Source of the DNA: Streptomyces sp. TLI_105
GTDB taxonomy: Bacteria > Actinomycetota > Actinomycetes > Streptomycetales > Streptomycetaceae
Assembly (NCBI RefSeq): GCF_900105415.1
Contig: NZ_FNSM01000001.1
Location: 7,572,001 to 7,636,000, forward strand
Length of the DNA: 64,000 nucleotides
Reading direction: 5' to 3'
Shown here: piece after piece, positions 54,126-61,575 of the stretch
Numbering within the stretch: position 1 is the stretch's first letter
How the letters are laid out: every line of letters starts with the position of its first letter
Notes under the pieces: generated by a model
What the model was told of the DNA's origin: nothing
Seen by the model: the letters and a program-made list of their open reading frames with translations, nothing else
Databases searched by the model: none
Program-made: the position numbers and the translations under genes

Positions 54126-54683
54126 ATGTTCCGCCGCTCCGGCGTGAACATCCCCTTTGACGTGCATGGGAGAAGTGCGTTGCCGGTCTGGGAGAGGTCG
54201 AGCGCGGCACGGGTGGTACCGCCCGCGCGACCGCGGAAACTTGCCAAGGTGCCGTTCGTCGAGCTGGCCGACGGACGCTTGCAGGGCGTGGTGTCCAGCG
54301 GGTCCGACATCGGGCGCGTGTACGTGTCCTCGATCGCCGCCGGGACGTACGCGTTCGCGTGCAGCACCAACAACAACCGTCCCTGCGGCGGCGCGCGAGG
54401 CTCGTTCTGCAACCACATCCGCGCCCTCGTCACCGAAGCCGTCCTCCAGTACGGCGCGCAGCGCGTCGCCCGCTACCTGAAGGCCGACACGCCCGCCGGG
54501 GAGGCCGACGCCCAGACGCTCCTCTCGACGATGACCGCCACGCGCCCCGCGCAGGGCGACACCTCGGCCGCCGCCCCCGTGTTCAGCCGGTTCCTCAGGC
54601 ACCTCGCCTACCTCGAACTGGCGCCGGTCACCGCGCCGCTGCCCGAGATGCAGTGGTTCCCGCCGACGAGGGCGGTCGCCTGA
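54126..54683 (+). CDS. SWIM-like zinc finger protein
   Basis: A 185-residue protein, first gene of a five-gene operon. The finger is at residues 79-97: Cys79, Cys87, Cys95 and His97 in FACSTNNNRPC and SFCNHIRALV, a variant of the SWIM pattern CxC...CxH with wider first spacing. SWIM modules bind DNA or proteins. The start is uncertain: ATG 54126, or TTG 54120 closer to GCGGGGA, or GTG 54105. The next gene begins at its stop (TGATG). In enterobacteria a SWIM protein (YehQ) belongs to a similar locus. Confidence 0.78.
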   Translation: MFRRSGVNIPFDVHGRSALPVWERSSAARVVPPARPRKLAKVPFVELADGRLQGVVSSGSDIGRVYVSSIAAGTYAFACSTNNNRPCGGARGSFCNHIRALVTEAVLQYGAQRVARYLKADTPAGEADAQTLLSTMTATRPAQGDTSAAAPVFSRFLRHLAYLELAPVTAPLPEMQWFPPTRAVA

Positions 54684-58783: not shown

Positions 58784-61575
58784 CCGGGACCCCGTTCACC
58801 GCGCTACGCGGTCAACTGCACGAGGCGGCGGCGGAGTTCGCCGGCGGAACGGACGCCCTGGAGGGCATCCTCCTCGGTCTGGTCGACGACGTCGACCGCG
58901 CCGTGGCGGAACCGCTGGAGATCTTCCCCGTCTGCCACCACTCGCCCGCCTCGGCCCTCGCCATGGCCCGCCGGCTGCGCGAGAAGCAGCCCAAGGTCGT
59001 GTACCTGGAGCTGTGCGAGGACATGGCGCCGCTCCTGACCGAGCTGCGCAACTGCCGGCTGCCGGTGGCGGTGCAGGCGTTCGCGAGCGACATCGACGGC
59101 TTCCCGCCCGACTGGGCGCCGCTGTCCGTCGTCGCCCCGATCACGGAGGCCTCCGCCGAGTACCAGGCCATCGCGTACGCCCTCGACGCCCCCGGCGTCG
59201 AACTGGTCCTCGTCGACCGCTCCTCCGACCACGTCTTCCAGTGGGACGCGCGGCACGACCGGACCGGGGAGGACGCCAAGGAGGCCGGAACCGGCACCGA
59301 GGCCGAGACCGCGCTCCACGGCGAGGCCGTCGGCGTCGAGATCGGCGACCTGCGCCCGCGCTTCGCCGAACTGGAGGAGCACCTGCTGCGCCACGGCAAG
59401 GTGCGGCACTGGTCGGAATGGTGGCACCAGTACGTCGAGGTGCCCCTCGGCGACAGCGACCACGACACCTACCGTCAGGTCATGTTCCTCATCGGAAGCC
59501 TGTTCCGGCGGCTCGCGCCGGGGGACGGCGACCGCGTCCGCGTCGACGAGGACCGCGAGCGCCACATGTGGACCCGGATGCGCGAGCACCTGACGGCGAC
59601 CGGCACCGACCCGGCGGACTGCCTGTACGTCTGCGGAGCCTTCCACGCCGCCAGCCGCGTCGAGGAGTTCGGCGTGCGCGGCAGCGACACCTTCGCGATC
59701 TCGCCGCGCACCGCCACGACCTGGCAGTACGGCCTGATCCCCTCCAGCAACGCGGCCATCGAGGCCCAGTTCGGCCTCGCCTCCGGTTCCGTGTCGATCG
59801 CCGCGACGCAGTGGACGAAGAACCTCAAGCGCACCCGGGTGAAGCCGTACCGCCTGGAAGGACAGGCCGGCACGAAGAAGGCGGCCACGAAGACCACCGT
59901 GCCGACCGCCGCCCTCCCCGCCGCGGCGCCGGCCGAGGACCGCCTCTCCGGCTTCCTCCGGCGGCCGCCGGTCCTCGACGCCCTGGACGAGACCGAACTG
60001 CTCGGCTGGTCCGTGGACATCGTCCGCGCCGCCCGTCGCAACGGCTACCTGGCCTCCACCGCCGACGCGATCGCCGTCTTCGAGACGTCGATCCTGCTCG
60101 CCGGGATGCGGGACCGGGCCAAGCCCACGCCGTACGACTTCCAGGACGCCGCGGTCACCTGCATCGAGAAGGACGGCGTGCCCGGACGCCGGGACGTGCG
60201 CCGCCTCGTCGAGATCATGATGGGCGGCGACCGGATCGGCCAGGTCGGCTACGAGGCGCTGCCGCCGCTCGCCCGCGACGTCCACGACCGGCTGGCCCCC
60301 CTGGAGCTGAACCTCCAGCAGCGCGGGGTGCGCCGGGCCCTGCTCGACATGACCTCCAGGCCGGAGCTGCGGGCCTGCTCGGACGTCCTGTGGATGCTGC
60401 GCCGCCTGCTGCCGCACGGCGCCGCCCGGCCCGTCATGGGGGAGCGGCGGCTCGGCGAGCGGTCGATCCAGGAGTCCTGGGACCTCGCCCTCGGCACCCA
60501 CCAGCGGGCGCTCATCGAGCTCGGCTACGAGGGCGTGAGCCTCGAACAGGTCCTGGAGCAGCGCCTGCGCCGCACCGCGTACGGGCCGCGGGCGACGACC
60601 GCCGAGGTCCTCGCGGCCGTCGAGGACGCCACGCTGTACCTGGGCGGCCGGCGCCTCGCCGACGAGCTCGGCACCCGCGCCCTGGAGGTCCTGGCGGGCG
60701 AGCGGACGGTGGACGGGGCGCCGGAGGTCCTGCGCCGGGTGCGCGGACTCCTCGCGTACTACCGCACCGGTGAACCGGTGCTCCCGCCGTGGATCGAGTC
60801 GTTCGTCAGAACCGGGTACGCGCACTACTGCACGCTGCTGCCGACGGCCTTCCGCGACGAGGACGCGACGGTCGGGCAGGTGGCGGCGATGCTGGGCTTC
60901 CTGTTCGGCATGGAGGGCCTGGCGCTCTCCCTGGGCTGCGACAGGACACAGCTGGAGCTGGCCGTCGCCCAGGCGCACCCGCGGGACCCGGCGAAGACGG
61001 CCCTGCTGTGGGCGGCACAGGTCCAGCTGGGCACGCTCTCCCGGGACGAGCTGCGGGCACGCTGCGACGAGCTCCTCGCCAACCCCCTGACCGTGCCCTC
61101 CTACCCGCGCCACCTCAGCGGCTTCGTGCACGCCCTGGAGCCGGTGCCGGGCCTCGCGGACGTGGTGGTGGAGGCCGTGTCGAACGCCTTCGGGCGCCTG
61201 CCGGACGCCGTCCTGCTGCCGTGGCTCCCGGTCCTCATCACGACCCTCCGCTCGAACGCCGCGGAACTCGCCCCGCTGCTCATCCGCGAGGCGGGACGGA
61301 TCTTCCCGGCCCGGCTCGCGGCCCTGGACACCTGGGTCCCGCCGTGGCACCACCGGCCGGCCGGCCCGAGCGCCCTCCCGGCGGCCACCGGCCCCCGGGG
61401 CGCGGCACTCCTCCCCGCCCACCCGACGACCTGCGACGCCCTCGCCGAGCTCCTGGGCCGCGCGGACGGCTGGGCCACGACGGACACAGCGGCCCGGGCC
61501 GGAAGCGGCGCCGTGCTCCTCGCCGCCCATCCGGCCACCGCCGACGCGCTGGCGAGCGTCCTCACGGCCCGATGA
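58780..61575 (+). CDS. DUF5682 family protein
   Basis: A 931-residue soluble protein, last gene of the MoxR/VWA operon. The N-terminus has FPVCHHSPASALAMARRL (His53, His54) and VVYLELCEDM, a variant of the HHGPGSA...VLVEGP block of DUF5682; spacing of His and Glu recalls the TraB/ChaN/TIKI hydrolase superfamily, but that link is inference. A Lys/Ala linker at about residue 365 leads to a long helical C-terminal region, perhaps a scaffold. The GTG overlaps the MoxR stop by 4 nt, so both products are made together. Confidence 0.87.
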   Translation: MTGTPFTALRGQLHEAAAEFAGGTDALEGILLGLVDDVDRAVAEPLEIFPVCHHSPASALAMARRLREKQPKVVYLELCEDMAPLLTELRNCRLPVAVQAFASDIDGFPPDWAPLSVVAPITEASAEYQAIAYALDAPGVELVLVDRSSDHVFQWDARHDRTGEDAKEAGTGTEAETALHGEAVGVEIGDLRPRFAELEEHLLRHGKVRHWSEWWHQYVEVPLGDSDHDTYRQVMFLIGSLFRRLAPGDGDRVRVDEDRERHMWTRMREHLTATGTDPADCLYVCGAFHAASRVEEFGVRGSDTFAISPRTATTWQYGLIPSSNAAIEAQFGLASGSVSIAATQWTKNLKRTRVKPYRLEGQAGTKKAATKTTVPTAALPAAAPAEDRLSGFLRRPPVLDALDETELLGWSVDIVRAARRNGYLASTADAIAVFETSILLAGMRDRAKPTPYDFQDAAVTCIEKDGVPGRRDVRRLVEIMMGGDRIGQVGYEALPPLARDVHDRLAPLELNLQQRGVRRALLDMTSRPELRACSDVLWMLRRLLPHGAARPVMGERRLGERSIQESWDLALGTHQRALIELGYEGVSLEQVLEQRLRRTAYGPRATTAEVLAAVEDATLYLGGRRLADELGTRALEVLAGERTVDGAPEVLRRVRGLLAYYRTGEPVLPPWIESFVRTGYAHYCTLLPTAFRDEDATVGQVAAMLGFLFGMEGLALSLGCDRTQLELAVAQAHPRDPAKTALLWAAQVQLGTLSRDELRARCDELLANPLTVPSYPRHLSGFVHALEPVPGLADVVVEAVSNAFGRLPDAVLLPWLPVLITTLRSNAAELAPLLIREAGRIFPARLAALDTWVPPWHHRPAGPSALPAATGPRGAALLPAHPTTCDALAELLGRADGWATTDTAARAGSGAVLLAAHPATADALASVLTAR

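Follow-up and report, generated by a model that had tools for sequence, protein, structure and literature searches.

Layout of the operon and its products

The window analysed in this work, a stretch of 64,000 nucleotides from Streptomyces sp. TLI_105 (contig NZ_FNSM01000001.1, positions 7,572,001 to 7,636,000 of the forward strand), contains five closely spaced genes for a zinc-knuckle protein, a partner of 464 amino acids (aa) that is referred to as gene 2, a VWA_CoxE protein, a MoxR-type AAA+ ATPase and a DUF5682 protein (Table 1). An earlier note on this DNA, made from its letters alone, had described them as an operon, and upon re-reading of the frames all of the coordinates, overlaps and the intergenic gap that it reported were found to be correct. 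The first frame is open from 54126 to 54683 and the limits of the other four are those given in Table 1. The zinc gene is joined to gene 2 by a TGATG overlap (54681-54685), gene 2 to the VWA gene by ATGA (56074-56077) and the MoxR gene to the DUF5682 gene by GTGA (58780-58783); the gap between the VWA and MoxR genes ranged from 11 to 313 base pairs (bp) in 82 loci measured by script. In hmmscan searches, Pfam named just two of the five products above its cut-offs, viz. the VWA_CoxE protein (PF05762, E 1.2e-29) and the ATPase (AAA_5). Searches of the five proteins against NCBIfam and PADLOC gave weak matches alone, those from PADLOC being for the MoxR and VWA proteins.

Table 1. Window positions, strand and main features of the five genes and of the gap between two of them.
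Feature	Position	Strand	Remarks
Zinc-knuckle (SWIM-like) protein, 167 aa from probable start TTG 54180	54180..54683	+	invariant C79, C87, C95, H97 (185-aa numbering)
464-aa partner (gene 2), second half of split zinc protein	54683..56077	+	helical N-terminal part ~1-205; beta-rich part ~211-421, tandem-OB-like
VWA_CoxE protein, 513 aa	56074..57615	+	N-terminus Pro/Ala-rich; VWA_CoxE match at 289-496
VWA-MoxR gap, 46 bp	57616..57661	+	CCTGAGA-like heptamer repeats
MoxR-type AAA+ ATPase, 373 aa	57662..58783	+	AAA_5 E 7.1e-38
DUF5682 protein, 931 aa	58780..61575	+	N-terminal alpha/beta part ~44-350; helical solenoid ~574-850; C-terminal short repeats, number varies

The probable start of the zinc protein is TTG 54180, behind GGGAG, rather than ATG 54126 (which would give 185 aa), because this position is occupied by TTG in 82 and by GTG in four of 96 aligned loci, a Shine-Dalgarno-like word is found upstream of the start in 88 of the 96, and the conserved KLAKVP is preceded by just 23 open codons in four loci. 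GTG codons situated further inside the gene are possible alternative starts. The zinc motif of this protein is C-x7-C-x7-C-x-H, with the three cysteines and the histidine invariant in all 81 aligned rows. The label SWIM, by which the protein had been known in the earlier note, applies in a loose sense alone, as the Pfam SWIM family (PF04434, CxCx(n)CxH) did not match the window protein and the spacing of its residues is different.

The zinc-knuckle protein and the product of gene 2 are the two halves of a single protein, which is split or fused depending upon the lineage; that the zinc protein had been separated from its other half was earlier a conjecture. In 88 of 101 loci (87 by script and L056 by eye) the zinc gene ends in TGATG leading into gene 2, and in the other 13 a linker joins the two into a single open frame. 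L040 and L090, which lie at contig ends, are not part of this count, and the 13 fused loci include at least two pairs in which the same sequence is present twice; among the 101 loci, L019/L200 and L053/L204 have identical DUF5682 stretches, each pair probably being one genome represented twice. Locus L030 is among the fused ones, although there is a stop codon ahead of its start. The split/fused trait requires six changes on a quickly made DUF5682 tree, and the strongly supported branches force at least two of them. The loci on one side of the root (L093, L094 and L185-L188), which was placed at the midpoint and not inferred, are all split.

Within the ATPase, the words that we take to be Walker A, Walker B, sensor 1 and the arginine finger are intact, and they are invariant in 83 of 83 sequences. 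The residues of the VWA protein that resemble a metal ion-dependent adhesion site (MIDAS) are D358-x-S-x-S, N417 and D443. DQSGS and D443 are present in all 84 sequences, position 417 is T in 56 and N in 28 of them, and the residue following it varies in three. The ATPase words and most MIDAS residues are intact and, apart from T/N417 and its neighbour, the two proteins have the ATPase motifs and VWA MIDAS expected of a NorQD/CoxDE-like pair.

Conservation of the five genes and their relationship to yehLMPQ

A scan of GTDB contigs for relatives of the MoxR protein yielded at least 544 matches, of which the best 80 were fetched as loci. All five genes were present in the same order and on one strand in 78 of these loci, the other two being cut by contig ends. 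Among 246 genomes of the phylum, gene 2 was matched in seven, five of them strongly, and the divergent form of DUF5682 was found in the same five; besides the window's own genome, all four strong-match genomes contained the five genes in order. The weak gene 2 matches in G031 and G066 were rejected as operon members, as there was no operon at either. In a second set of 199 genomes from the same genus, gene 2 was detected in 45 and the divergent DUF5682 in 47. After setting aside two of the latter that were short and weak, the two proteins occur in an identical 45 of the 199 genomes, and all 20 of the regions examined from these 45 contained the five genes in order. Gene 2 was broken over two frames in three of these 20 regions (L189, L190 and L191), due to either decay or assembly error, with the other four genes in one frame each. 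Locus L029, where the frames look broken over the operon, was left out of the alignments and trees.

The operon is found in the Streptomycetaceae, Pseudonocardiaceae and further families, and the genes flanking it vary, the commonest flanking cluster of open reading frames being present in 16 of 82 loci. It was also detected on five of 72,556 plasmid records, all of which are large actinobacterial replicons (0.9-11.9 Mb), and its search against 50,697 phages gave one weak match. The distribution of the operon is patchy, a minority of soil actinobacteria having it, but its parts stay together. The earlier note had proposed that the products work as one machine and had named rare co-occurrence of the homologues as a result that would speak against this. 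The homologues instead occur together and, in view of their co-occurrence, order and overlaps, it is almost certain that the five genes constitute one functional unit.

The operon is one far-diverged branch, which we will refer to as type B, of a broad module comprised of MoxR, DUF5682, VWA-CoxE and SWIM proteins. In the actinobacteria this module is of four kinds, for which the letters are coined here: type A (with DUF5691 in several loci), type E (yehILMPQ-like, with DUF4132), type C, which is defined by a DUF5682-VWA fusion, and type B. In a tree of 43 MoxR rows, type B was set apart from the rest by a branch with 100/100 support and had a long stem. The module, or its MoxR-DUF5682 portion, is also found on plasmid records of the Bacteroidota, Deinococcota and Proteobacteria.

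The likeness of the operon to the yehLMPQ genes of Escherichia coli, which are of type E, had been suggested in the earlier note, and it is upheld by tblastn, where identities to the window were 41% for MoxR (YehL), 31% for VWA and 31% for YehM against DUF5682 residues 39-138. Both operons combine MoxR, DUF5682, VWA and SWIM-type proteins, and it is highly probable that the window operon is a subtype of the yehLMPQ-kind module. However, the order in E. coli is MoxR-DUF5682-VWA-SWIM with DUF4132 (YehI) nearby, whereas that in the window is zinc-gene 2-VWA-MoxR-DUF5682 and the neighbouring genes (377 and 185 aa) are too short for DUF4132. Further, YehQ, in which two CxC..CxH motifs can be made out by eye, is a single chain, in contrast to the split zinc protein of the window. 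As the canonical SWIM finger was not found in this protein, we regard the operon as a divergent relative and not as a strict yehLMPQ-type member. Profile comparisons (hhalign) of gene 2 with YehQ or with the type A SWIM protein gave probabilities of 0.2-0.5%, shuffled sequences scoring as high and the profiles being shallow; no homology was likewise detected by this means between YehQ and the type A SWIM protein. Within a yehILMPQ-like operon on a mobilizable Iodobacter plasmid (L211:9522-11578), the YehQ homologue is spread over two overlapping frames, which may be either a working split or a frameshift.

Type A is represented by a second locus in the source genome (L003), with the order SWIM, DUF5691, MoxR, DUF5682, VWA, and there are similar loci on plasmids of Deinococcus and Hymenobacter. 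It shares the SWIM, MoxR (44% identical) and DUF5682 proteins with the window operon and, in L003 and Deinococcus, also the VWA protein. It differs in that DUF5691 adjoins the SWIM gene, the Pfam SWIM family is matched, and the DUF5682 protein of L003 matches its family at E 9e-294, versus 101.7 bits in the window. The latter score, from a six-frame search, is well above the family cut-off (26 bits). The result of hmmscan conflicts with it, no family having been returned for this 931-aa protein even at E 10; pipelines relying on hmmscan may miss type B. By BLAST, the window DUF5682 is 29% identical to the second DUF5682 of its own genome (E 9e-5), and a close relative is annotated as 'DUF5682 family protein' in a plasmid record. 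Type A was present in all eight same-genus genomes of the phylum sample, which looks like a housekeeping role for the module as a whole.

Although this module is present in E. coli K-12 (yehLMPQ), Actinobacteria, Deinococcota, Bacteroidota and Proteobacteria, it seems to be unstudied. No paper found in our literature search, which left subscription papers mostly outside its reach, mentioned DUF5682, and of the MoxR-VWA papers found none was recognised as a study of a yehLMPQ-type module; all four yeh names occur in a genome announcement, and a strain resource contains two of them. PMC7159879 uses neither the term SWIM nor the term DUF5682. The description of the operon as an undescribed system is hence right to the extent that no study of the module was found, but type B is a divergent subtype of a module already known part by part from annotation.

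The DUF5682 protein as a candidate hydrolase and client

In 60 DUF5682 sequences from four subtypes, the residues H53, H54, E77, E127, D146, W215, E220, R259, E260, M263, G286 and H289 are invariant. The resulting pattern, HH...E...RExxM...GxxH, has the Tiki-superfamily order of H, E, R/E and H. In the Tiki superfamily the R motif reads R-[DE]-x-x-M, and in the 17 yardstick proteins compared here R311 and H338 were invariant and E128 nearly so. The resemblance is to the order of motifs in a superfamily that includes TraB/PrgY/GumN, ChaN and erythromycin esterase (PMC6254334). Besides DUF5682 itself, the Pfam families recurring in more than one of 37 N-terminal domains were those of the Tiki type alone, viz. 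TraB/PrgY/gumN (4) and ChaN (2), and in the five weak Tiki-type matches for which ranges are available the matched stretch always includes RExxM..G[AG]xH. In a predicted model, in which strand directions were not seen, strands and helices alternate at residues 47-146 and further strands lie at 281-321. The statistical backing for a place in this superfamily is weak: no Tiki profile matched DUF5682 significantly (the best, E 0.008, was under the cut-off, hhalign against erythromycin-esterase-family proteins gave 0.2%, and a further comparison gave none), and no structural match was significant, the structure searches being filled by helical-repeat matches. The protein also differs from the Tiki families in being joined to a large helical solenoid. 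We consider it somewhat more probable than not that the DUF5682 core is a Tiki-like hydrolase. The TraB family, found in one of 119 phylum genomes, was too infrequent for a profile. PHROGs matched DUF5682 with one weak family of unknown function (E 4.7e-4). The C-terminal tail of the type B protein (window 61395-61575) contains an HPxTCDALAxLLG-like short repeat, of which a simple pattern counted 0-3 copies among 84 relatives, where the zero class includes the frame-broken L029.

In type C, a single frame of 1243-1645 residues, next to a MoxR gene, encodes both DUF5682 and VWA (six loci: L126, L127, L129, L130, L147 and L148), and on the same branch L153 encodes a 1255-aa DUF5682 protein with a VWA-like DxSGS word. 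These fusions link the candidate hydrolase with the VWA adaptor. A precedent for metal insertion by a MoxR-VWA pair is provided by NorQ/NorD, where, according to PMC13036017 and PMC9976466, a VWA partner powered by a MoxR hexamer remodels its client for metal insertion. The window operon shares with the NorQ/NorD and CoxD/CoxE pairs a MoxR ATPase and a VWA_CoxE partner with MIDAS residues, but it lacks a nitric oxide reductase or CO dehydrogenase gene and has three additional proteins. Every complete locus examined contains the DUF5682 gene, which in the window shares four bases with the MoxR gene and in type C is fused to VWA, so that its product would be the natural client.

The best explanation overall, which our analysis favours with a confidence somewhat short of even, is that the five genes encode an accessory machine in which a NorQ/NorD-like MoxR-VWA pair may serve its own DUF5682 hydrolase. 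The MoxR hexamer and VWA adaptor would act as in NorQ/NorD, where the VWA domain would dock on the client and pass on ATP-driven strain. The operon's DUF5682 would be this client, a metallohydrolase of Tiki-like type mounted on a helical scaffold, and would thereby be remodelled, loaded with metal or unlocked; the chances that MoxR-VWA acts on DUF5682 as its client we regard as evenly balanced. It is a guess that the zinc-knuckle/OB-like pair picks the target, possibly nucleic acid or protein, and its recognition role is proposed only tentatively. It is conceivable, though distinctly improbable, that ATP-licensed hydrolase switches are a class common to E. coli and Streptomyces. In these, recognition of nucleic acid or another cue by a zinc-knuckle/tandem-OB protein would lead the MoxR-VWA motor to unlock a solenoid-mounted Tiki-type hydrolase or to load it with metal, type B being a rapidly diverged accessory version for conflict. 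The naming of a likely client and of likely active-site residues makes the module directly testable and, if true, a MoxR-VWA pair with a client in its own operon would help explain the role of such chaperones.

Alternative explanations and other features of the window

A conflict or defence system, with the zinc/OB-like pair as sensor of foreign nucleic acid or protein, MoxR-VWA as the part that sets the threshold and DUF5682 as effector, is a kind of role also suggested earlier, and it is a possible but rather unlikely alternative. It accords with the scattered occurrence of the operon as an accessory unit (45 of 199 same-genus genomes) and the lack of a conserved neighbourhood noted above, and with the OB-like matches of gene 2, which include the DNA-binding domains of RPA and HIN-200. 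Additionally, the related module on the Iodobacter plasmid lies near a type I restriction-modification gene, one type B copy is near an N-6 DNA methylase, and a defence-type reverse transcriptase (E 3.7e-117), mads_2 and mads_3 were each matched once in the flanks. However, in a flank set of up to two genes a side (with genes of more than 700 aa dropped and a gene finder made for this analysis), the commonest PADLOC match, among the best 25 of 68 families and without a control set, accounted for three of 127 flanking proteins from 36 loci, and no defence family recurs in the listed matches. MoxR-vWA couples with further parts have been proposed as conflict modules, in multicellular actinobacteria also (PMC7159879), but the third parts that define these ternary systems there (VMAP, iSTAND, FtsH and beta-propeller) differ from those of the window operon: none of these families was found above its cut-off in the five proteins, the MoxR matches to FtsH_fam (E 0.098) and bpMoxR (E 0.035) being below it. 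The single weak phage match and the housekeeping-like presence of type A likewise argue against defence. Together with the weak PADLOC matches of the MoxR and VWA proteins, these results have so far not substantiated a conflict role.

The operon could instead encode a metal- or cofactor-insertion chaperone, like NorQD/CoxDE, for a client encoded elsewhere, with DUF5682 as a non-catalytic scaffold or co-chaperone. The VWA_CoxE family membership, the intact MoxR words, the large helical solenoid of DUF5682 and the metal-insertion precedent (PMC13036017 and PMC9976466) are all consistent with this possibility. However, no gene recurs widely beside the operon, and the invariance of His, Glu and Arg residues over four DUF5682 subtypes speaks for an active site; we regard this alternative as unlikely. 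That the operon is a relic, or a neutral set of overlapping genes without joint function, is scarcely credible: three of the 20 examined genomes have gene 2 broken over two frames, but the co-occurrence of the parts, their invariant residues and their spread over the Streptomycetaceae, Pseudonocardiaceae and other families speak against it.

Elsewhere in the window, positions 8458-14869 contain what we take, by eye, to be ABC importer genes followed by ectoine/hydroxyectoine synthesis-like genes. Lastly, three adjoining genes at 31480-34394 are, by eye, perhaps RNA-ligase-like, kinase/phosphatase-like and RNase HI-like.

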